From Bolinopsis microptera (taxonomy: Eukaryota; Ctenophora; Tentaculata; Lobata; Bolinopsidae): a stretch of DNA of 64,000 nt. Position numbers and translations under genes: made by a program. The first letter of the stretch is position 1. Each line of letters begins with the position of its first letter. The DNA lies in NCBI RefSeq assembly GCF_026151205.1, contig NC_087076.1, positions 2,751,902 to 2,815,901 on the forward strand, written 5' to 3'. The notes under the pieces are model-generated. The model saw only the letters and a list, made by a program, of their open reading frames with translations, searched no databases and was not told where the DNA came from. Below are positions 15,288 to 60,404 of the stretch, piece by piece.

Positions 15288-16200
15288 ATCAGATGCCATC
15301 GTGGAGTAGGTGGTCTCCTGCACCTTTTCCGCCTCGACATGGAAGAAAAAACCTAGACATGCAACCTGCAATCCGAAGGTGATTGCAGCCCTTACGGAAG
15401 ACTATTATAAGGTCTTCATGCTTTTATAATTAATGATGCATAACGATAGCTTGTAAACCCCAGAAGTTTCCAGTATCATTATGGATCACTTACCAAGCCT
15501 GGTGACACAAAGCCAAAAGCTGCATGCTGGGACCGGCTTAAAATTTTTAAAGAAACGAATGGTCTTCGTATCATTCATTCCTGTAACTTTGAGTGCGGAA
15601 GGGCGGCGAAAATTTTAGGGAGTTATGAAAAATTGTAAAAAGAAAGTGTGCCTACTTATAGTGGTAGTTAAATGGATGGAAATGTAATACTATTCTATTA
15701 GTAATGCTGTAGCCCAAGGTAAATGTTTGACCCCACGTGGTGTAAGTCATCTGATATAGACACGTTATAAACACGTGAAATAAAAATAAAAATAAATGAA
15801 ACGAGAGGCCGAAAATGGAAGTGAAAATTATCGAACTAAATAGATGAATTACCGAGAAACGGTAAATAACCGTTATGCACAGGGAAGGGGTATAATTGAT
15901 TTATTAACATGGTGACAAATAATTTGATTTGATACGACAGAGAGATCACACGCACTGTTTTATAAGCTACTTGTGTCGGATTAACGATTAGTGGGCAGTG
16001 CAGAGTCGATAGTATAGTGCTCTGTATCAGTATAATAGTGCTCTTGTTTGAAGTGAACACAAATAAGAATAGCTGAGCCCATGTCTTATCAGCACCTGCT
16101 AGCCCTATCAATATGACGCTATCAATATGACAGTGAATGGGCAGTGAAAAATGTGGCATATGGTTGATAGTGACTAATGTGCTAACCGTATAGTTTTACT

Positions 16201-16858
16201 TATTCCTTAGGTAATTCTCGGTAGTTGATTTGTTGAGTGCCTGATCTTGTCGATTTACGTAGCCCGGGTAAATTATATTGTAACAGAAAAGGTGGCCAAT
16301 CTTCATTGTTTCCTGAGCTTTGTAGTTCTATCATTACACGCTTTGCTGATTTCTTATAAATGCTTATTGAGAAAATGCTAGATGGGCAAGTTATGCGACT
16401 AATGTTGTGCTCGGTAATAGCTAATATAGGACCTTTATAGATAACAGTAGCGCGTAGATCCGGTTGAGAGTACGTTGTTAGCCAGTTGATATTGTCGTCA
16501 TAATACGTGCCATACTTTGGTATATCGGGAGGAAATAAGTCTTTTATCGACGACGATACAAGGCCAGGCATGTAAGTTATCTTTTGCATCAGAGTCAGAG
16601 CATTTTTTATGATGACCCCGTGTACAGATAATATTTCGTACTCTTTAAACGTAGCTTTAGTATGATCCGGAAGCTTACCATCCTTGTAATAGTAATTCAC
16701 GTAGCCCGACATAACTGCTTGTATTCCCTGCTTTTGTTTAGTGAACAGTGAGTCAATATGGGATTTTGCAGCAAAGCCCCAAACTAGTGCACAGAAATTT
16801 GAATGAGATTGTACAAAACTTTGGAAGATCTGTAAGCGTGCTTTGATTGGTAATTTGA
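16201..16858 (-). pseudogene. 5'-truncated LINE fragment, reverse transcriptase C-terminus
   Basis: The minus strand reads in one open frame as the region downstream of the catalytic palm of a non-LTR reverse transcriptase. QSFVQSHSNFCALVWGF corresponds to the conserved 'F.hShl.YC..vWg' element, followed by IDSLFTKQKQGIQAVMSG and, near the end, NLPGLRKSTRSG. The palm motifs and endonuclease are missing, so this is a 5'-truncated insertion, the usual fate of LINE copies. The frame has no stop over about 215 residues, suggesting a fairly recent copy. It belongs to a different lineage from the AlkB-containing LINE at 43-49 kb, judging by its C-terminal sequence. Confidence 0.75.
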
Positions 16859-18061
16859 TTGGTAACTTAAAACAGCTCTAACTTTTTGACCTTTCGGTTC
16901 CTTAGTTGAGAAAACTCCCTAATCTTGAGGTTCCGGGCAAAGTGGTTCCTTGGATAATTATCTATAAATCTGATGTAGCGATTTTTATTCGACTCGGTTC
17001 TCGAATTATGAGGTTGACCATTTCAAAAAGTTGCTAAATTTACACTTTTGAGATGGTTAACCTAACAATTCGAGATTGTTGACAGATATACCCTCCTCTC
17101 CTTAATATATATAACTTAACAAAATGGTAATTGATCATACTCGAGTTATAATAACAAACCTAAATCGAACATTACCTCCGGTCTTGCTCGGTCTTGCTCG
17201 GTATTATGTCTGCTTCAAGGCAATTGCACACCCCTTATAGAAAGACAGTTGATCTTTCTATTCGAACTTTAGCTGTTTTGTAATCCTTAATATCAAGCTA
17301 ACGTTCACTTCGAGCCTACTTTCTGACTGAGCTTATGGTAATGAGCTCAATAGATCTGGAAAATGAGGAGGGGAACCATATTACTCTGACATGTGACAGT
17401 GATTAACCAATCAGCTTCAATCATTGACCAATCAAACCCCAGAATCACAGTCGCGTGTCAAAACAAATATGGTTCACCTCCCCACAAGCGTCTGATCACA
17501 AGAAATTTTCCTCTTAAACTTTTATAAGAGGCATTTTGTTACTCGCAAATTTCTTTCAGGGCCTCACTGTTTGTAGCTCTGAAGAGGTGGAAAACGAAAG
17601 CAACTAATTCATACAAAGTTAAAGGATACGTAAGTAGTATGACGTCATGATTCTCAACGTCTATTTTAGATTTAGACTTGTTGATCTTGTCTACTTTATT
17701 TCTTGCTTTGGACCTGTTCTTTTAAAGTGGGTATATCCACATTCCACCATTATCTGTTTAGTTAACACAGTGTGTCAGCGTAGTGATTACTTCCCCACGT
17801 TTTCCATATATGATAATGATATATAATATAATAATACCTCGCCACATTTACATAATACCGCGATACTAAGCCTAAAACCTTGCCCTTCACCCCTTTCACT
17901 CTGTCTGGTGTCCTAGACCCTTAGCACTTAGCTCTTAGCACTTAGCTCTTAGCACTTAGCACTTAGCACTCTTAGGAGTACCTATACCCTAACACACCTG
18001 TTTATAAATCATGTCTAGTTGTTTAGCTGGGATGATAATATATCCTTACTTATGGAAGTAT

Positions 18062-19836: not shown

Positions 19837-37236
<17,400 letters not shown>

Positions 37237-41225: not shown

Positions 41226-44200
41226 CTTCACACGTAACTTTTGAGCCCAATTACCTCCCCTGCCGTCATTTTGACATGCAGCCGACAACCCATATTGGTT
41301 AAACGTTTCCGTGGCATTGGATGCAGTAAAACATTCTGTGTTGTATTGGACTGCGAAGACAGAGAAGCCTTGTTCCTTGGCGAAGTTGTAGCAGTCTTCA
41401 ATCGGTGTATTTGAGTTGAATCTGATGCCTCCAGCTATTGCTCTGGTAGGAGCGTCAGTCCAGCAGCCCAGACTCTGAGGACTGCATTCACCTTCAGGAG
41501 TTGGTTTCTCTGATGGATTTGATTATAGTTACAAGTTTCAATGAGAGCTTTAATTTGATATAATAATCTACAGAGTAACTGCACTTCTATCATCACAGTG
41601 CTGGCAAGCATGACCGTGCCTCTTATATTCACTATACTATTTACCCTCTTCACTAATATACCCCCTTTACTATTATACCCTCTTAATTGTTTTTCAGGCA
41701 ATTAGTTTTTCGTCAAGTAGTTCAGCAGACATATTTTAAGTTCAAAACATTCTAATTCAATGTCAAAGATGACAGGAATAAGAAATAATTCTGTGGAGAT
41801 TTTTAAGAATTTTGGGGGGGGGGGGGGGGGGCCAACCATATTAAAGTATATTAAAGTATATCCCCGGGTCAAAATCGGAAAAAATCCTACATTTTAATAT
41901 ACTTTAATATACCTACAATTAGTAGATTAGAAGATAAGCCATTTGCTAGTCCCCTGAACTCATACTTCATATATTTTGGCTCATAAATTGGTCAAGTATC
42001 AATATCTTTGAACAAGACTTACTTTACATGAAAGGTAAATCTAATCCATACATTAAATAAAACAAAATTTTTCACATAATTTTTTATAATGTAGGGATAG
42101 ACACTCCCCATATTAAAGTATATTAAAGTATATCCCGGGTCAAAATTGGAAAAAAAACCTACATTTTAATATACTTTAATATGGTTCAAAATTTTAATGG
42201 AGAAAATGTAGGTATATTAAAGTATATTAAAGTATATTAAAGTATATTAAAGTATATTAAAGTATATCCCCGGGTCAAAATTGGAAAAAATCCTACATTT
42301 TAATATACTTTAATATGGTTGCCCCCCCCCCCCCCCCCCAATTTTACATAAAATACGCCCCAGCACTGTTATACGAAATTCGGTAAAAAACCCAAAATCG
42401 CCATATTCAGGTGCCTTAAAAACCATGTTAAAATTGACTTAGAGATCTGAAACTTTGCAGGGCATCTAGACGTTGACCAAATCGACAACAAAAAGTTTCA
42501 AGTTTCAGGAGCATTGGAAAGTGGGTTTTCTAGAACCCCTGTTTTACGACAGATTGCCGTGTATATATATAATATTCAGGGATAGACGCTTTGTCAGTCA
42601 TTGTAGCCTGTATTTAATTGTAGATTCAAAAGTATAAAAGATACAGCCATTTCCGACCACAGGTCTTAAAGATAATTGCTAAAATGTTTATTTTTAATGG
42701 ACATTAATTGAACGCTGGAGGCCCTAACAGTCATCTTAATGTCCATTCAAATAAAGTCTGTTCATTTAAGGTCCGTTGAATTTTTTTCCAAAATGTTTCC
42801 ACTTCGAACTTTTTGTCCAGAATATGACAACTATGAGAACTTTATTGTGCCGTAAGTTAACGACGGAAAGGTTCTCCTTGGTTTGCCAGAAGCACAGAAA
42901 ACTCTACAAGTATATGATGTTTTCAAGGGTCACTTGGCGGAAAAAGTCAACGAAATTATGGCACTTAACAACATAGTTCATGAGCTAGTCCCCGCCAACA
43001 TGACAAACTTGTTCCAGCCTCTCGATATTACGGTAAACCCAGTGACATAAAGTGAGGAATCTAAGAATCTAATTCCTAGCCATATTAATTTCCATAGCCA
43101 CGCCGACTAATTTTTGTCAACAAAATTATTAAATCAACTTTAAAATAGTCGCGGTTGTTACACACTGTAACGCCGCGCACTGTACTTTAATTCTATATTT
43201 ATCCGAGAAGATGTTCGAATCGAGCGCAAATGCCAGATTCCTGCAGATTCCTAGTTCTTGCGCTTAACTTGCGCGTTACCAAATAATCCAAGATATTCCT
43301 GTCAGGATCCAAGATTTTCCTACTACCAGTATGGTAGTATGGACTGTTTGGTAGTATGGTAGTATGGTAGTTGCAGGAACGCGCGAAGACGTATATGTAA
43401 ATATTACAAAAGCGTACATGGAATCGTAGCCTAGTTGGTTCATCCGTCGGTACAATGTTCTTATCTCTGAACATGAATCAGAAACTCAAAACTGTGAAGT
43501 TAGCAGTGTGACTGAACTTAATAGCAACCCATCTCTTGTGAATTCTTCTGATGTTAACAAACAATCTTCAACCAGTGTTAACGTTGTGGGTAAGTCCATC
43601 AATCCATATCATGATTTGAGTCGAGGTGTATTCAGGTTTGTTGATACTCTCAAGTTGGATATGGAAACACAATACACACAAACGTTTAACAATAGGGCTG
43701 TAGCATACTATGGGGATTTCCCATATGCCTACAATGGAGGCTTCCATAACACGAGGCCGTTAAATGACAATCCCTTATTAAAGTCTATTTTAGAACGTTT
43801 ACGCTCACAGTTCCCAAGTCTGATATTTAACAGCGCCATGATCACTAAGTATGAAAATGGCAAGCAAGGAATACCATTCCATTCAGATGATGAGAGGTCC
43901 ATATCACCAGGCTCCATGATTTCCACCATATCGTTAGGAGCAACAAGAGTCCTCAGTTTTAGGTCTAAAAGCAAAGTCCACGTTGCCAATCTTACTCTCT
44001 CCCATGGCGACATAATGATTATGACCAGAAAATCTCAGGACAGCTTTGAACACAGCCTTATTCAGGACCATACTGATGACATGAGAATTAGCATTACTCT
44101 GCGCCAGATTGATGGCAGTGCAACCTTGTCTGCTCCACCCGATACCTCAAGTAAGCCTTTCGTTACTGTAGGAGAAACTGAACCCTCAATCAAAGGGAAA

Positions 44201-47200
44201 TCATCACCCAACAAAATCACTCATAAGAGCACCGTATCCCCTGCTTCAGTCAAAAGCAAATCCCTTGCTGTGTATGTTAGCTCAAGCCAGGGACAAAAGG
44301 ATTTCGCGGCATGTACGAAATCGCGAAATTTCCCATTCTCCGCGACAAATTTTATGTATAGTTTAATGTATAGCCTGTTAAATTTTGCGGTATCGCGAAA
44401 TTTGGCCAAAATAATCGCGAAATCCTTTTGTCCCTGGCTCAAGCATGTTCTCCAAGTTAGATGCTACAAAACTATCCTCTGCTCATCAAGAAGCACATGT
44501 ATTTCACTATCCTGGTGGCATTGCAAACGGTATCAATGAACGCTTCCACTCAGATGAAAGAAAGAGGTCAATTGATGCAAATAATGTGAAGACCATCGTA
44601 CTCATGTGTGGAACTAATGATGTGGACTTAATCCTAGAGAGTCCTCGACACATGAGGAATAGATTATTGTCACCCGATGAGTTCACAGGAAAAGCAAAGG
44701 CCCTTGATAACACCAATCGCTCTATTGATAATCTGATCCAGTCACTTCACTCGTGGGCTCCAGCTGCAAAAATTAAGATCATAAACATTTTACCAAGAGA
44801 AAGTTTTGCTAGAAATAAAGTGATAAATGACATCAATATCTTTTTATCTAAGATTCCTTCCAAATACTCGTTTGTTAGCTTTATACCCACAGAGATGAAT
44901 CGATTTTTGTTTAGTGATAGATCTGGATTTAGGAAATCATCTTGTTTTAATAGTAGATTTGGGGAAGACAATGTGCATCTAAACAGCGATGGTATCTTTA
45001 AACTAGCAAAGCACATCAAGTACCATGCTCACCATTGAAATCGACATGACATTTCCACCTGAATATTTATTTTGATTTCAAGTTTAAAACTTTTCTATTG
45101 AAAATATTTACAGGCGGATAATTTTCACCTGATTTTAGTTTAATCAGACACAACGACTAACACGTTCTGTGAAATGACAAATATTCACAACTCAGCTGAC
45201 AAATTTCATAACCTTTGCATTGGTCACTGTAACATTCAAGGTGGTCTCCTAAATTTAGCTAAAAGTAATGAACTTACTCAACTCATTCGAGATCATAAGC
45301 TAGACATACTTTCCCTAAATGAGATGAATCTTAATGATACTATTGACACAGACACCATAAATATTCCTTCCTCCTTCAACATTATGCGATGCGACAGGCC
45401 AAACAGTTCTAGGGGTGGTTATGGCTTAATGATAAACAAAAAACTAGCTTACACAGAATTAGTTATGGATAGTAAGCTTGATAACATTGAAGCATTATGG
45501 GTGAAGCTTAAGAATAGCAAGATCAATGTTTGCTGCTTCTATCGCTCTGGAAATTATTGCAGTGTTGATAACTTTATTGAGTACATTCATTTTTGCATGA
45601 AAAAATTGAACGGGAAAAAGGTTATCTGGATTGGGGATATAAACATTGACCAGAATAATATCTCATCAACCCAGTACAAAAAATTAGATATGACCTTGAG
45701 ATGTTACAATCTAGTTCAAACCATTCAAGGGATAACTAGAGTTGCTAAACGTGGAGACAATTTTACCCAGACTACTATTGATGTAATATTCACTAACTGT
45801 TATGCAGATTTTGTTCAATCTTCTGTTCTTGATTCAAACGTATTGGGGATCATCAAGCTATTATGTGTGAGATAGATTGTAAAGTACCTATAGCTCCTAA
45901 ATTTGAAAAGGTTGAAATTAGAAATCATTGTAAACGTAATGTTAAACAATTCTTAGACTATCTAGATACCTGTTCTGATTACAGTCCACTATTGGAAAGT
46001 ACAGATGTTGAAGCTATCACTGCTGGCCTTTGTCATCATATTGAACAGGCATATGCAACCTTCTTCCCTTGCAAGACCATAGAAAGGCATGAAAAGTTCA
46101 TACATAAACCTTCTACTGAACTTTTAAATGCCATTAATCATACACATTTTCTTCTAAAGAAATTCCGTAAAAAGAAGGATAAGAGAGACAATGGAAATTG
46201 CAATAAATGTGGTATATGTAGCAAATGTATAAAGTGTAATGAGGCCTGGGATTGCTACAAGATTCAGAGAAATATTAGAAATAAATTAGCTAAAACCTGC
46301 AAAAAGGCTAATGTAATCGATGATCTACAAGTTAAAAGTGCCAAGAATGATCTTAAAGTGGTATGGAAAACTATCAAACTGGCATCAAATATGACCCCTG
46401 GTACAACTAATTGTCAAACTATCAATGAGAATGATCCTGAGCTATTTAACTTTCATTTTGCAAATGTTGGATCAAGATTACAAAATCAGGCCCCCAGTAT
46501 TGAAAGAGTTAGTTTTACTGATTTTTTACCTCCTAGAACTAACATCTCATTTGATAGATTCCAAGAAATAAATGAAACTGATATCCTAATGTATGTCGAA
46601 ACGCTCAAGAATGACAAGGCCTCATATGACGATGTGCCTCTATTTTTACTTAAGCAAGCTGTACCACACATAGTTGAGCCACTGACCCATATTGTCAATT
46701 TGAGCCTTAATACAGGTGTTGTACCAACCCTTTGTAAAAAATCTAGAGTAACTCCCATCCATAAGGCAGGAATGAAAGATGATCCTAATAATTACAGACC
46801 AATATCCATCCTTCCACTTGTAGGAAAACTTATAGAATACTTTGTCGGCAAGCAACTCACTGATTACATGGAAGAGAACAAACTTTTCATCCGGCATCAA
46901 TATGGCTTTCGGAAAAATCACTCCACAACTTATTTGATGTACGATCTGATGGACGAAATATATATGAGTAAATCTAAGTCTTATAAACCAGGAATCATCT
47001 TTCTTGATCTTAAGAAGGCCTTTGACACAGTGAATCATGAAATATTGCTTCAAAAATTGGCATATTATGGAATTGGTGGCATTGCTTTAACCTGGTTTAA
47101 GAACTTCTTATCTTGTAGATATCAATGCACTAGGATCAATGGCAAACTGAGCTCATTTTTAGAAGTTCTGAGTGGTGTACCACAAGGAAGCATCATTGGG

Positions 47201-50200
47201 CCTATATTATTTAGTATCTTCATAAATGACATCATTTATGCCTGTAACCTATCTAAGCCCTTTCTATTTGCAGATGATGGTGCACTATTCTTTGATCAAA
47301 CCTGCAGAAGCACATTTATAAACATGAAAATAGAACTTATGACAATCTTTAAATGGCTCAGTGTAAATAAATTATCACTCAATGAAAAGAAGACTGAATT
47401 CCTATTGTTTGATTCTGTTGATCAACATGATGAATTAACCATTGAATGTAATGAGGTAACTTTCACAATCAAGGAGTGCAAAGAGACAAAATATCTTGGC
47501 CTAATTCTAGATAGTAAATTAAACTTCAAAAGCCATGTAGATTATATTATTAAGAAGGTCATGAAGAGAATTGGTGCCATGTATAGAAGTAAAGCACTGC
47601 TACCCATTAAATATAGGAAAATGTTTGCCAATGCACTCATGTTGCCACAATTCGATTATTTAGACACGATCTATTGTAGAGCTGGCAAGACAAAACTTGC
47701 TGAACTTGACACTCTGTACAAAAAGGTAGCCAAAATAGCTCTCAACGTTCCACAAACAGAGAGCAGCCTTAATGTTTATAGAGACATGAAATGGTTACCA
47801 CTCCATCTTAGACGACAACTCCATCTGTCAAATTATATGTTTAGAATCATCCATGACAATTGTCCTACAAACTTTATGAACAAATTTAGTTACATATCAG
47901 GAGGTAGTAGGAGCGGCGAAAGCTGCAAACCTATATGTTAATAGATGCAACCTATATGTTAATAGATGCAACCTATATGTTAATAGATCAACATCACATA
48001 AAAACTTTCAATACTTGGGGGCAAAATGTTGGAATAATGTTCCAACAGATCTACGAAATCTGCCCGATGTTAAAAGCTTTAGTGATTCGTATAAGAAACA
48101 GCTACTCTCATCTATAACAACAGACCCTAATTATACCGTCGACAATTCATATGACAAATTTTACACTGCAATCATAGTCGACGATAACTAAGTATCTTCT
48201 AATTCTTTTAAATCTGAGGCATATATAATTGATGTATCGAAAGAATTTTCCTTGTTTTACCACCTTACCATTTTGATTGATTTTGCACATGACTGACATG
48301 TTTTAACTGGAGAAAGGGTTCGCACAGTGGTAGTTTTATAAACCACTTTTAATTTAATGACCTATTATACCTAGTGGTAGTTTTATAGACCACATTTAAT
48401 TTATTTACTTATTATACTTAGTATTTATTTTTGGTGACTGTATCACCCAGTTTTAACATTTGATAATTGTACATTTTATTGACGACACATTGACTGAATG
48501 TTATTTTATATTCTAATTTATATTCTAGATATTTTACTTATTTTTCAACAGACGACAACTTCCTGTTTTTTCTTCTATATAAGTTACTCATATCTCTTTT
48601 ACAGACTTTTTTACAAGGACATTGACAGATGATACTCACATTAGGCATTCATTATTGCATCTAAATTATTTCACTTGCATTAGGTTTAGAAATTTATTCT
48701 CTGGTTAACAGATTTCAAATGTTTAATTAATTTGTAGTATGACAGTAAGGTATATAAGAAGTTATTTAATTTTGCCTGGGCTATTATATTGACTATTGAG
48801 GTTTAATGATGGTATGGAATTTGAATTCTATATAAATTTACACTCTGTGGTTGGGGCATTTTGCATAGTAAATATGGTTACTACTCCTATATATCATATT
48901 ATTTGATTGGTATTCGATTTCTGATTATTTCTCTAGGAATATGATTATTATATCTCAATTTGGCTTTAGGTAGGGTGCCCCGCTAAAAGAACTGGATTCT
49001 TCCAGGAAGCATCCCGTGCACAGACCTTGGTCTACATATATATTAAATTATTAACCATTCATTCTGTATGTGCACGAAAATTTATTTCAATCAATATTAG
49101 CAGATCGCGAGTTCGAGACCCGGAAAGGAAATCTTTCACAATCTTTTGGCAATTATGAATAACTATACTAATGAATTAATAACTATACTAATGAATAACT
49201 AAACCTCTGTAATATAACTAGCAAAGTAAAATGAAATCGTTATCCGGCCGCGGAGCGGCCGAAAAATTTATGGTAGTCGTTTTAAAAATATATGGTAGCC
49301 GTTTTTTCTTTCCAGACTGGATTCCTAGTCCCTTTTTAAATTTTTGTCACTGGGACGGTAAATCGTGTTGCCAAGGACATTTTCCGACGTTGTTATAGTT
49401 CATATTACTCAGGGGAGGTAATAGAACAGTGCTAGGAAAGCTCCACGTGATGTTAAGGTTTACCTAAAGTTGTCTAAGATAAAACCACTTTACGCTGAAT
49501 GGCTTGTAAAACACTGAAATGCAGGACCGGGATAGTTTGATAAAAAAGGTTTTCATAAAGCTAGAAATCACTGATGCTTTAAGCATGGACTATTTCTTGC
49601 ACGAAAACCCATTTGATGAAGATGATATGTGAAATTAGACACTGATCATGTACACATATTTTAACATTCTTACTGCTTAACGTCTGTTTTTCTTACTTAC
49701 TGTATAAAAATGGATTTAAAAATCATTTGCTGAAATAAAAAAACGTCAAAAAAATGAAAAAAATTCGGAATTTTGATGGTTTTGAATGCCTTCTAGCATT
49801 CATATTAATATCCGTTCATAATTATGTCCGTTAATTTAATGTCCGTCCAAATAAGGTCCGATAAGGTAACCAAAACGAAGACACTCACCTAGCTTACGTC
49901 CTTGGTAGCTCATTCCATAATTTCTAGTTCTACTGGGACATGGCGTGAACTGGTCCCCCTCGCAGCACAAACTGTTTCTCTATCACACTGCCGTCACACT
50001 TGGTACCCTGAGGAGTGTAGACGTTCTCCTTGTTTGATTTACAACAGTACTGTCCATGGTAGTAGACGTTGGGGAAAGACGCAGGACAATCTAAAAATAG
50101 TTGGCAAAAAATATATTCCATATTTATTACTATTTATCATCTCTATTTCTAAATTCTATGCAAGTTGACAAGGATATGTTCATAAGTTTTTAAAAAGTGC

Positions 50201-56115: not shown

Positions 56116-59100
56116 ATGAGTGCTCAAAAAGTCATCACCTTCATCACTGGAAACGCTAAAAAGTTAGAAGAGGTTAGTACCTACATGTTTTGTTTTTTCC
56201 TGTTTGAGATAAATGGATAACGTCCTTGTAATGTTCCAGATCGTAATTTAAATGTTCATAAATGTTTTACAATTATTTCATTCATTCCAAGAACCTACAA
56301 TAATTGACAATTTATCCTAAGCAAATATTCCTTGTTTGTCTGGTAACCTCAGTTTATTTGCCTCAGGTGACTGCAATACTTGGTAAAGACTTTCCCTTTA
56401 TGATTGAAGCTCATAAAGTTGATCGTAAGTAGATTTTATTATCCTCTTGAAAGGATACAAATCAAATTAAAGATTCCACGTTTTACTTATTAAAAACTTG
56501 TATTATTCATAAATTCTTCGATTTTGCTATAATTCTTGACATTTTTCCAGTTCCAGAATTACAAGGAGAGCCAGAAGACATAGCAAGACAAAAATGTTTA
56601 CTAGCTGCTGAAAAAGTAAGTCGAGTAGTAAATGTAGTTTAGCGTACAATTTTCATAAATATGCCTGATTTCAGCCATGTTACCAGTCACACATGGTTTG
56701 TACTTACTTAAAACTTCTTAATCACGCACATGTGAACATTGACGGTACCTCCAGTAACGGTAAACATTACATACAAAGTTATGACATTCTCTGAACTAAC
56801 TGCTGATAATTCCTTCTCTTCAATTGACCGGATTTTGTCATTTGAACTTTGTAAAATCAGTGATCGGATAACGTTTGGATTTGGCGCCTTTTTAACGGTT
56901 TTGCATCTTTTTACTAGTCGACATTCGACATTCAAATAATAAAGGCAAAAGGCGTTGAGCCGTTAGTGTAGCAAAATTGTGTGCGCGGCGCGCAATTGAG
57001 CAAGCCATGCAATCCCCAGCTAGCTGACCTTACATAATATTATTCGATTTAATGTATTTGTTTTTCAGATGAATTTTGGACCGGTGATAGTGGAAGATAC
57101 TTGTCTCTGTTACAACGCACTCAATGGTCTGCCTGGTCCCTACATGTAAGACACTTAGGTAGTTGGTACTGTGTAGTTTAAATCTAGTTAGTGAAAATGT
57201 ATCTTTCATTCACTATAGGTTTCAAGGGTATAGTCATTACTAATTTGTAAATAGTATAGAAGTCAGTCAAGCCGCTATGAACAAACATCATTACACTATA
57301 TTTCTATATTTGCCATCTTACATTTGATACACCTCATTCATAAAAAGGAGGCGGTCACAGCTCTCGCCGTGGACAATTGAGGTCCCCGCCAGCTTGGTTC
57401 TTTTATTTGGGGAAATATTGAAATTCTGGATCAAATAATATCACCACAATACGTGGATCCAGAAATCAATCTCTGCAAAGATTTGCCATTCTTAAAAAGT
57501 TGTTAATGATCAGAATTGAGGGTACTTTATACAATTACAATTCACCGAACCTTTCGCATTTATTTTTAAACGCCACTGCGAGGAAAAATCGTAGAAAGTA
57601 CAGGGTGGGCCAAAAGTCACTGGACATGCGTTGGTCTTAATAGCTTCGCCGTGTTTTATATTTGAGAGCTGTTGCTTTGCAGATCGATAGCATACTGTAG
57701 CTTCTGGTTCGAGGATTCCGTCGTCAAAATTTGAAAATTCGAATATTTGAGACCACGCCCATTCAAAATTAAAATTCTGGACGCCTGATTTTTTATAAAG
57801 ACGGTAGATTATTAAATGTTGCATCTGATCTGAAAAAATGACGTGAAACAGATTAGAAATGACGAAGTTATCAAGAATTTTGTGTATCTCGTTAACAAAA
57901 TTGACTGGATGATTATCTGACACCGTGACACGCCACCTTAATTGGGCAGCCTCAACGATTCCCATAATGTTTAATGGGGTGGTTAACGGGGTAATAAAAT
58001 TTAGCTCGATCCGACTATCCAAACTATCAAATAAATGCAAAAATGAACCTTCATTTGAAAAAAATGAACTCGAATATTTTTCGATTTGACAAATTCCTCG
58101 AACCAGTGGTGGTAGTAAGTCGTACCAGAAAGAATTATTTCAATTGGTCACTCAGTGACTGAGCTATTAAGGCCAACGTATGTCCAGTGACTTTTGGCCC
58201 ACCCTGTACTATTAATTAATAGTTAATAGGATATTCACATCTAAATGAAATGAAATGAAATGAAATGAAATAATGTGCTTGTATACCGCCCATATGGTTA
58301 GCAACTGACACAAGTGCCAGGTACTAACCATGTCAGAGCGGTTCTAAAGGGTGAGGTGAAAATATCCAGCAACAAACAACTAAATCATCTCAAAAACAAA
58401 TCTATTTAGGAAAAATTAAAACTTTAAATATATCATATAGTAATCATAGGAAGATTTATTGATATATACCACACTACGATTAACAATAAACCACCAGAAA
58501 ACTCTTCAAAAGTAACATAACATACTTATAGGAATCAAAAGAAGGATTATTAATATGTTAATACACATTGCACTAATAAATAAAGATACACCCTACAACA
58601 AATCATAAGAACAAAGACAAAAACAGCACTAATCACATACGGTCATATAAATAATGTTTAAGGGTACCTTTGAAACTGTCTACGTTGCGTAGTGATCGTA
58701 TCTCCCAGGGAAGTGAGTTCCAAGCAGTTGGTGCGTAGTTGGTGAATCGACGTTGATCAATCTTACTATTTGTAGTTTTAGGAGTCTTTAGTCTGTAACA
58801 ATCTCCTTCTACTTTTGATCTTGTACAAGTAGCTATTGTCAATGGGTTTTCAATCACTACAAGATTCTGTATGTAGGCCGGTGCAATCCCATGCACAGCT
58901 TTATAAGTTAACAGGCAGACTTTAAAGAAAATCCTTTGGTCAAGAGGAAGGATATGTGCTCTCTTGTAGTAGGGAAGTAGGTCTTCTGATCGGTCTTTGA
59001 TATTGTAGATGAACCGTATGGCACCATTGAGGGTTGATCTTAGCTTGTTTAGTCGTGTCTTTGGTAGGTTCATGTAAAGAGAATTACAGTAGTCGAGCTT

Positions 59101-60404
59101 TGATATTACAAGCTGTGTTACCATCATGAGTTTCACTCCTTCATCCAGATAGCGCCCAATCGTCCTTAGATTCATCATTGTCCAGCTGCATTTCTTTTTG
59201 ACACTATTAATTTGTCTTTCCATGGTAAGAGACTTATCAAACTTTACCCCAAGACTCTTCCAGCTGTCACCTTTAAGAGACTTCTTCACGTCCTTACGAT
59301 AAACTTCGGTCCATTCATGGTTAGTGATAGTAGTCTCTGTATCATCCTCGTTCACTGGTGACTTGGCTATAGTAATCGTGTGCCTTGCTGGCAGGGGCTT
59401 CTCTATTGGGAGGTTAGCTTGCAGGGATTCCGCAGGGGAAATGGCAGCCACTGAAATAGCTTCTTTCAGAAGATTAGGTAGGACTTCACTCAATTGTCTC
59501 TTAATTATGTTTTCTAGAGTTTGGCTGTCCTGTTCCGGAAGGGGGACAAGTGAGGTCTTTGCTAGATCAATAGCTCTGGTTGCAATGATGTATAGTTCTT
59601 TACAAACCTTGAAAATATGTTCTTTGTTGTTGCTGGTGGGTATATCTGTTAAAATCTTTGCTTCGTGGATTGTTTTCTTACCTTGAAAGGACTTTTCGTT
59701 GATTAGGTCGAGCTCTTCTTCCAGTTTCTTCAAGTCATCCATATCTGCTAATGAAATCAAGGTCCTATACCCAAGATAAACTGTAAGTTTTTAGAAAAAC
59801 TTAAACAGCTACAGTAACGTAGATCTGGGTGTGTATGATAACAACTTAACAATAGAAACCTCAAATTATTTGTTATATAGTAGTGTTGAAAGTATTAAAA
59901 CTAAGTCTAAACGTTTTAGAAAGTGGTTTTTAGACAAGTGTGGCAGAGAAGGTTTGTACAAATTATTGGCTGGTTACGAGGACAAGTCTGCTTTTGCTCT
60001 CTGTACTTTCGCTTACTACGATCCGGACAAGAAAGAGGCGGTTATCTTCGAGGGGAAATGTCATGTGAGCAACACGTTTCACTTCTTGTTGTTTTATTTT
60101 GGTGGAATTATTACAGAGCTGATCAATATATTTAAATCGATTTTGCAGATTTTACTTCGAAATGTGCGGCACTTTGAAAAAATTGCTGAATTAGTACCCT
60201 GAATCTATACGTACATTTCAGGGAAAGATTGTTCCCCCGAGAGGCCCGGATTATTTTGGCTGGGACCCAGTCTTTCAGCCTGACGGCTATGATGTGACTT
60301 ACGCTGAAATGGATAAGAAGATAAAGAACACCATTTCCCATCGTTTCAATGCTCTGTTAGCTATGAAGAATTATTTCTTGGAGAATGGAAACTTAGGATC
60401 GTAG
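56116..60404 (+). CDS. ITPA: Inosine triphosphate pyrophosphatase, 194 aa, 6 exons
   Basis: Exons 56116-56172, 56367-56424, 56551-56615, 57069-57145, 59920-60064 and 60222-60404; phases agree and sum to 195 codons, the same length as human ITPA (194 aa). The enzyme hydrolyses ITP, dITP and XTP to the monophosphate plus pyrophosphate, clearing deaminated purines from the cytosolic nucleotide pool. Visible signatures are the N-terminal [15 protein letters not shown] substrate motif, [33 protein letters not shown] with its metal-binding acidic residues, and the C-terminal [19 protein letters not shown] then ISHRFNAL. Intron 4 (57,146-59,919) is greatly enlarged by a Tc1-like MITE and an internally deleted LINE. 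The 3' end converges on the BZW-like gene about 970 bases away. Confidence 0.97.
57599..58208. mobile_element. Tc1/mariner-like MITE, complete copy
   Basis: Termini TACAGGGTGGGCCAAAAGTC and its complement (GACTTTTGGCCCACCCTGTA) enclose 610 bases, inserted at TA in ITPA intron 4. On the minus strand a 176-codon open segment crosses the element (57,510-58,040), with words such as [19 protein letters not shown]. It has no recognisable DDE motifs. It is shared with the copy at 28,509, so it could be a relic of an unknown protein or simply open by chance. Confidence 0.85.
58244..59800 (-). mobile_element. Internally deleted LINE in ITPA intron 4
   Basis: A minus-strand LINE derivative. The 3' end is a pentamer tail, read on the plus strand as (ATGAA)n at 58,247-58,271, typical of L2/CR1 lineages. 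The 5' boundary is near 59,800. The endonuclease and the catalytic half of the reverse transcriptase are missing. The target duplication was not resolved. Confidence 0.8.
58633..59760 (-). CDS. Fused ORF1 N-terminus / RT C-terminus, 375 codons, open
   Basis: The single open frame begins [20 protein letters not shown], a charged, coiled-coil-like ORF1 N-terminus. At about residue 163-166 ([14 protein letters not shown]) it passes into the region downstream of the RT palm: [30 protein letters not shown] and, near the end, [20 protein letters not shown]. About 2-3 kb of element (rest of ORF1, endonuclease, RT palm) has been removed in frame. It cannot reverse-transcribe itself. The intact frame could reflect youth, or use as a non-autonomous element that keeps an RNA-binding ORF1 part. 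A host role is not shown. Confidence 0.75.
   Translation of the reverse strand: MISLADMDDLKKLEEELDLINEKSFQGKKTIHEAKILTDIPTSNNKEHIFKVCKELYIIATRAIDLAKTSLVPLPEQDSQTLENIIKRQLSEVLPNLLKEAISVAAISPAESLQANLPIEKPLPARHTITIAKSPVNEDDTETTITNHEWTEVYRKDVKKSLKGDSWKSLGVKFDKSLTMERQINSVKKKCSWTMMNLRTIGRYLDEGVKLMMVTQLVISKLDYCNSLYMNLPKTRLNKLRSTLNGAIRFIYNIKDRSEDLLPYYKRAHILPLDQRIFFKVCLLTYKAVHGIAPAYIQNLVVIENPLTIATCTRSKVEGDCYRLKTPKTTNSKIDQRRFTNYAPTAWNSLPWEIRSLRNVDSFKGTLKHYLYDRM

Follow-up and report, generated by a model that had tools for sequence, protein, structure and literature searches.

The window, a stretch of 64,000 nucleotides from the ctenophore Bolinopsis microptera (contig NC_087076.1), carries a damaged copy of a long interspersed nuclear element (LINE), whose first open reading frame (ORF1) comprises an AlkB dioxygenase domain and an SGNH esterase domain and is followed downstream, on the same strand, by an ORF2 encoding an APE-type endonuclease (EN) and a reverse transcriptase (RT). 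The copy extends over 43449..48190 (+), as delimited by tblastn with P0051, an intact ORF1 protein of 536 amino acids (aa), and by the frame of the ORF2 C-terminus, with the coding end of ORF2 near 48190. ORF1 is 5'-truncated at ~43449, which corresponds to residue ~60 of P0051 by tblastn; the GTG at 43508, where an earlier note made from the letters of the sequence had placed the beginning of ORF1, is not a true start. The remaining ORF1 comprises (i) a first half with the AlkB domain and linkers at 43449..44286 (+), PF13532 covering ~43721-44104, and (ii) a second half with the SGNH/GDSL esterase domain at 44438..45038 (+), separated by a palindromic insert of 151 bp at 44287..44437 (no strand assigned) with terminal inverted repeats (TIRs), resembling a miniature inverted-repeat transposable element and flanked by the target-site duplication (TSD) CTCAAG at 44281-44286 and 44438-44443. 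The two domains accordingly lie in different frames of the window copy, AlkB at 43430-44539 and the esterase at 44415-45038. The earlier description of an AlkB core directly followed by an SGNH core in one ORF1 therefore holds for the intact copies, which display both domains in a single protein of 536-551 aa, and not for the window copy, split by the insert. No second copy of the insert was detected within the window by blastn.

ORF2 comprises the endonuclease at 45144..45875 (+), with its ATG at 45174 and a frameshift near 45850, the reverse transcriptase at 45833..47941 (+), and a C-terminal part up to 48190 (+), preceded by a second frameshift near 47905 and a three-fold 21-nt tandem. In two other genomic loci, L041 and L044, the homologous ORF2 remains open for ~997 aa. 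The identification of the element as a LINE was borne out by these domains, an EEP endonuclease (PF03372, 2.4e-8) and RVT_1 (PF00078, 6.4e-36), and RT matches in the PDB include R2, L1 ORF2 and others. An endonuclease of the AP-like kind and RVT_1 downstream of ORF1, together with a dispersed, multicopy occurrence that includes truncated copies, characterize the window element as a LINE. No convincing direct repeat around the copy marks a LINE target-site duplication or the exact 3' end.

The AlkB frame of the window matches PF13532 (E 1.7e-17) and the chains of human ALKBH3 and ALKBH2 (E 7.3e-14 and 9.3e-13, respectively), and all the motifs that the first reading had recognized (HxD, distal His, RxxxxxR) could be located, namely HSD at 43880-43888, the distal histidine at 44051-44053 and RISITLR, of the form RxSxTxR, at 44084-44104. 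The SGNH core, with its serine at 44442-44444, GxN at 44610-44618, aspartate at 44967-44969 and histidine at 44976-44978, is recovered by the family profile at 2.7e-83 despite a weak Pfam match under the cut-off (Lipase_GDSL_2, E 0.0019), the AlkB piece being recovered at 1e-71. Neither family profile matched any of 1000 shuffled sequences (500 per piece, HMMER filters on); given that the profiles were built from relatives, this is a check against chance and not an independent discovery. An NCBIfam search of P0051 and P0028 gave no matches.

The active sites are preserved among 131 relatives with both domains, in which no replaced iron or 2-oxoglutarate (2OG) ligand of AlkB was found. In P0051 numbering, the iron ligands H205 and D207 are present in 127/127 proteins with letters at these positions (4 gaps), and the distal H262 and the 2OG-binding Arg273 and Arg279 in 131/131 each. 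With an HxD...H iron triad, two arginines predicted to bind 2OG and a predicted AlkB fold, the domain displays the features that define the AlkB class. In the esterase, Ser340 is conserved in all 131, Gly364 in 130 (1 C), Asn398 in 129 (2 gaps), Asp514 in 119 (10 gaps, 1 E, 1 N) and His517 in 119 (11 gaps, 1 K), the deviating residues being confined to P0111, P0143 and P0011, of which, by reading, P0111 has an unlike end and P0011 is truncated. The catalytic set S340, G364, N398, D514 and H517 is complete in 79/79 proteins of alignment A3. In the 79-protein alignment, Pfam alone detects PF13532 in 79/79 and Lipase_GDSL_2 in 41/79, and the mean pairwise identity amounts to 42% for AlkB, 44% for SGNH, 12% for the linker and 24% for the N-terminal part. 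This last part carries a CxxC motif within the first 120 residues in 80/107 two-domain proteins longer than 480 aa (0/107 in control windows), and the AF2 model of P0051 predicts a helix at residues 23-48.

The AlkB half as query retrieved 34 relative proteins, and a profile from 11 two-domain proteins gave at least 126 matches at E<=1e-3 among 7993 scored candidates. The esterase alone retrieved 24 proteins, 24/24 with PF13532, in a search that reaches close relatives of ~0.55-1.75 times the query length and could miss short or distant esterase-only ORF1s. Among 148 relative proteins, 131 comprise both domains, 17 AlkB only and none SGNH only, a partly circular division because the profiles were built from 79 of the same proteins; the 17 are fragments or cellular AlkBs, including P0014, which has a Pfam esterase. 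All named relative proteins come from the ctenophore Mnemiopsis leidyi. One of its gene models, P0133, whose N-terminus had been read as a piece of ORF2, showed no real match to the window ORF2 and was dropped as evidence of linkage. In viral contigs, five loci were found by AlkB alignment, four of which (L001, L003, L004 and L005) carry AlkB in large polyproteins, phage type by reading, and were rejected as LINEs; two scans of viral contigs with the full ORF1 and a scan of prokaryote genomes yielded no relatives.

The intact form of the window ORF1 is P0051 (a cluster of 43 members), identical to the window esterase half at 194/199 positions, whereas P0001 shows 66% identity in both halves. 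Across the genome (264,652,675 bases, 232 contigs), P0051 gave at least 85 matches (81 of 844 candidates scored), among them (i) the two window pieces, with 94% and 97% identity, (ii) at least 16 copies of the window ORF1 type, stop-free over residues 1-536 with 95-97% identity (one with a 520-aa frame), and (iii) at least 22 further stop-free copies from residue 1-19 to 536, with 65-66% identity and frames of 551-552 aa, representing a sister ORF1 type (P0001/P0002) that shares 99% identity with the L041 ORF1; the remaining matches are partial or stop-bearing. The family is many-copied and apparently recently active.

The association with LINEs extends to the AlkB domain genome-wide, PF13532 giving at least 151 matches (150 of 587 first-look candidates scored). 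A sample of 30 loci (L015-L044, about every fifth match row by hand count, 20 taken at 10 kb and 10 at 6 kb) displays EN/RT downstream on the same strand in 23/30, by tblastn with the window EN/RT; L035, with an endonuclease by Pfam, raises the LINE ORF1s to 24/30. Hence AlkB is neither missing from most copies nor a host gene captured uniquely by the window copy, the two findings by which the earlier note expected its claim to fall. A few loci (e.g., L016, L025 and L028) have other insertions between ORF1 and the RT match. The other six comprise four of Helitron type (L018, L019, L020 and L036), the LINE fragment L021 and L032, of ALKBH8 type. L021 had been a candidate host AlkB gene; the tree places it with a 676-aa LINE family, hence its count as a fragment. 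L032 encodes a host AlkB plus methyltransferase, with a long branch and an unsure place in the tree; adjoining it, at L032:4425-7473(+), long frames for a UbiA prenyltransferase and for GH47 run without interruption, in an apparently intron-poor stretch. Compared with the window, the RT core is 27-36% identical in other AlkB LINE families, 58% in L015 and 98% in the copies L039 and L041. ORF1 architecture also varies, L017 displaying a PHD-AlkB-SGNH type (PHD 5e-4, under the Pfam cut-off).

Two trees place these AlkBs among their relatives. In the first, which contains neither Helitron nor L022/L026 loci and in which some LINE labels rest on domain content, one branch (87/89) splits 48 family AlkBs from 15 others (E. 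coli, human, metagenomic and IMG/VR). The second, with genomic loci, comprises 46 rows, 11 near-copies having been excluded beforehand, and groups 26 LINE and 5 Helitron AlkBs at 98/97; L021, a fragment, also falls in this group, as does, with an unsure place, the ALKBH8 row on its long branch; ALKBH2/3 are joined by host genes only, L007 with ALKBH2 and L008 and L009 with ALKBH3, apart from the LINE AlkBs. The AlkBs of L022/L026 are placed with cellular AlkBs and so look like the product of a separate, independent capture. An RT tree of 18 rows, in which long branches were flagged and no reference from outside was included, recovers main family groups that match those of the AlkB tree, as expected if AlkB has long been inherited with the element.

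A more recent event is visible in the comparison of the window copy, over 43591-48190, with L041. In 150-column steps, nucleotide identity is 65-79% over ORF1, 86% at 45179-45328, and 97-100% from there through the end of ORF2, placing a breakpoint at 45179..45330 (+). This sharp change means that near-identical ORF2s are paired with two different AlkB-SGNH ORF1s, that is, ORF1 was swapped. The simplest reading of the sequences is that recombination or template switching near the ORF2 start produced the swap, and the pair offers a recent example of ORF1 exchange.

The module also occurs outside LINEs. At least six genomic AlkB matches sit in frames of 2225-3388 aa, and the domain order was read in two. 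L019:3-9527(-), 3175 aa and reaching the locus end, comprises SGNH, AlkB, DUF6570, Helitron_like_N and PIF1, with the esterase motifs GDS, GTN and DNLH, the AlkB motifs HKD...H...RFSLTFR and the HLH (HUH) motif of the Rep domain. L011:223-3402(+) together with L045:2-5482(+) forms a single 2459-aa frame with the same parts. Both carry the Helitron domains PF14214 (5e-22 and 2.5e-22, respectively) and PF05970 (8.8e-22 and 8.6e-21), and the combination of a predicted HUH Rep-like domain and a PIF1 helicase in one ORF identifies them as Helitrons. L018 is a broken element of the same type, L020 displays SGNH followed by AlkB pieces as in L019, although its tested frames revealed no Helitron domain, and L036 is a fragment placed with the Helitrons by the tree. 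The Helitron AlkBs fall into a single clade (100/100), next to the PHD-AlkB-SGNH LINEs (92/70); this hints at, but does not prove, an exchange of AlkB between LINEs and Helitrons. SGNH and AlkB are not known to us as Helitron parts, the literature search not having been aimed at Helitrons.

Selection was assessed by the ratio of nonsynonymous to synonymous substitution rates (dN/dS, Nei-Gojobori) in eight families, with pairwise values for at most four pairs per family. AlkB is under purifying selection in 6/8 families. In the family of the window the median ratio is 0.18 over 21 pairs, and the window copy compared with L040, L041, L042 and L044 gives dN 0.105-0.116 and dS 1.17-1.26. The Helitron pairs L019-L020 and L019-L011 give dN/dS of 0.059/0.357 and 0.042/0.252, the 586-aa family 0.032/0.165 (one pair) and the 676-aa family 0.021/0.096; the ratio is 0.28 (median) in the 645-aa family and 0.20 in the 707-aa family, from one close pair. 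The medians for SGNH range from 0.0 to 0.54.

Taken with the conserved ligands, these data favor, with a probability of roughly 55%, a LINE family whose ORF1 protein comprises a CxxC/helical segment, an ALKBH2/3-like AlkB and an SGNH esterase, with a separate EN-RT ORF2, and whose AlkB would clean the nucleic acid of the element itself. AlkB enzymes of the ALKBH2/3 kind remove N1-methyl-adenine (m1A) and N3-methyl-cytosine (m3C), two modifications that prevent base pairing and halt reverse transcriptases, and ALKBH3 works on single-stranded DNA and RNA. The ORF1 protein would multimerize via its predicted coiled coil and coat the element RNA, and AlkB would oxidatively strip base methylation, most likely m1A or m3C, from that RNA either ahead of target-primed reverse transcription or while it proceeds, enabling the ORF2 protein to copy it. 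The earlier proposal that the LINE repairs its own RNA or alters m1A/m3C is a reasonable inference. The esterase may aid a membrane- or lipid-linked assembly of the ribonucleoprotein (RNP), the role proposed for the esterase of ZfL2-1, which shows activity and phospholipid binding according to the part of the source available (PMC3905857). For Helitrons, the substrate of the SGNH-AlkB pair would be the single-stranded form of their DNA.

Several observations weigh against this reading. The AlkB clade of the family falls outside ALKBH2/3 in both trees, so that the substrate is not readable from ancestry. Position 275 holds Ser in place of the Asn found in RxNxTxR in 129/131 proteins (1 D, 1 N), a replacement also seen in AlkBs outside the family. 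The 593-aa family displays a median AlkB dN/dS of 1.03 at dS 0.035, with few changes, and the 778-aa family 4.0 from one pair with 6.5 and 0.5 changes. In the L022/L026 LINE lineage, with AlkB ORF1s of 778 aa (frame, L022) and 511 aa (L026), the esterase was undetected. The presence of SGNH-AlkB in Helitrons weakens a pure repair of RNA templates and points to a single-stranded intermediate, or a mark set by the host, rather than RNA alone, as what the two kinds of element share. A broader proposal views AlkB plus SGNH as an accessory module that can move between mobile elements, with (i) an ancient origin in one LINE clade, (ii) a second, separate AlkB capture in L022/L026, (iii) swaps of the whole ORF1 between LINE subfamilies and (iv) an exchange with rolling-circle Helitrons; in each case the module would demethylate the single-stranded RNA or DNA intermediate of its element at a membrane-associated assembly site. 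We put this proposal forward tentatively, as slightly short of an even chance.

The strongest rival, still rather unlikely, holds that AlkB erases host silencing marks (N6-methyl-adenine, m6A, or m1A on element RNA; 6mA or another methyl mark on DNA) as a counter-defence, not as damage repair. That LINEs and Helitrons of the same genome both carry AlkB fits a shared host mark, and the AlkB of an orchid Ty3/gypsy element is, according to the accessible text of the source, an ALKBH5-like RNA demethylase that acts on m6A in vitro, with a proposed role in epitranscriptomic control (PMC9289625). The ctenophore family is nearest to ALKBH2/3, matches the ALKBH5 profile weakly (E 0.06-0.15), and its predicted fold gives structural Z-scores of 20-24 with ALKBH2/3 versus about 17 with ALKBH5/FTO. 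A second rival, improbable in our judgment, regards AlkB mainly as a nucleic-acid-binding module of the ORF1 protein, its chemistry being secondary, that supplies a missing RNA-binding domain. No esterase ORF1 protein in RepBase had an RRM or a comparable structural domain in the portion consulted of Schneider et al. (PMC3905857), and the orchid AlkB, from the same partial source as above, still binds RNA when catalytically dead (PMC9289625); if AlkB served for binding only, the loss of some ligands would be expected, and the invariance of its Fe and 2OG ligands in the 131 relatives therefore counts against this rival. Finally, the broken window copy, with its domains in two frames, might raise the suspicion that a host AlkB gene was captured once, by chance, next to an otherwise ordinary LINE, or that gene prediction produced an artefact. 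This reading is already refuted by the many two-domain copies; the EN/RT downstream in most sampled loci, the matching groups of the AlkB and RT trees, and the separate loci of the ALKBH2-, ALKBH3- and ALKBH8-like host genes also speak against it.

The surroundings of the LINE display a nested arrangement. The copy lies inside a TIR DNA transposon at 43038..49354 (no strand assigned), with ends CCCAGTGACA...TGTCACTGGG and an 8-bp TSD, ACGGTAAA, at 43030-43037 and 49355-49362, as delimited by comparing the junctions with a second pogo-like copy that starts at ~38900 to ~39100 and reaches 41161. This transposon is itself inserted in a pogo/Tigger-like transposon copy, a label that rests on a reading of the translation. 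Two open frames, at 16200-16877(-) and 58633-59790(-), resemble by eye the C-terminal ends of RTs of other LINEs; Pfam found no domain in either, and only the latter matches the window RT, weakly (7e-6). A long (AG)n tract occupies 23802-24570, where all six frames are open over ~750 bp.

Among known systems, the closest in layout are the type IV esterase ORF1s of CR1/L2 LINEs, including ZfL2-1, as described in the parts available of PMC4120745 and PMC3905857: ORF1 precedes an EN-RT ORF2, the C-terminal SGNH esterase has a Ser-Gly-Asn-Asp-His set, and an N-terminal zinc/coiled-coil-like segment is followed by a variable linker. The ctenophore ORF1 shares the predicted catalytic set and the N-terminal CxxC segment with a predicted coiled coil, but contains AlkB between that segment and the esterase, departing from the type IV definition, which has no further structural nucleic-acid-binding domain. 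Metcalfe and Casane, in the part of their study available, confined esterase ORF1s to two exclusively vertebrate groups among 448 Jockey-superfamily elements (PMC4120745), whereas the named relatives described here come from Mnemiopsis. The words AlkB and oxygenase are absent from the main text of PMC4120745, PMC3905857 and PMC5408684, and no AlkB-bearing LINE was found in the literature searched, most subscription papers and Repbase/Dfam lying outside its scope. The Phalaenopsis Ty3/gypsy element likewise is a mobile retroelement encoding an AlkB-family demethylase, an RNA-binding enzyme with m6A demethylase activity in vitro, the activity of the ctenophore AlkB being predicted; as far as the accessible text goes, the orchid element is a plant long-terminal-repeat element with an ALKBH5-like AlkB as a separate ORF and no mention of an esterase (PMC9289625), whereas the ctenophore module resides in LINE ORF1s and Helitrons, is ALKBH2/3-like and is fused to an esterase.

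Cellular ALKBH2 and ALKBH3 are the closest matches in sequence and fold, with the same Fe ligands and 2OG arginines, but the LINE AlkBs form a separate branch, display RxSxTxR instead of RxNxTxR, and belong to a mobile element in which they are joined to SGNH. Helitrons are represented by L019 and L011+L045, in the architecture described above. We know of no other LINE or Helitron with an AlkB-SGNH module. van den Born et al. reportedly described in 2008 AlkB domains of plant RNA viruses as part of the viral replicase; by this description, such viruses are likewise selfish RNA-templated elements with an AlkB of their own.

LINEs are among the commonest animal retroelements, and ORF1 is their least understood part. 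In the elements described here, an enzyme that modifies nucleic acids is conserved within ORF1 across several deep lineages, and it also occurs in a class of DNA transposons. This would extend the sole case of a transposable-element-encoded AlkB found in the literature searched, the orchid Gypsy element, to animal LINEs and Helitrons, within what that partly available literature covers. The finding makes it possible to test whether a transposon repairs its own nucleic acids or removes marks from them, offers a natural enzyme that may work alongside a reverse transcriptase on methylated templates, and suggests that mobile DNA can be equipped with an enzyme of its own for cleaning or unmarking its RNA or DNA.

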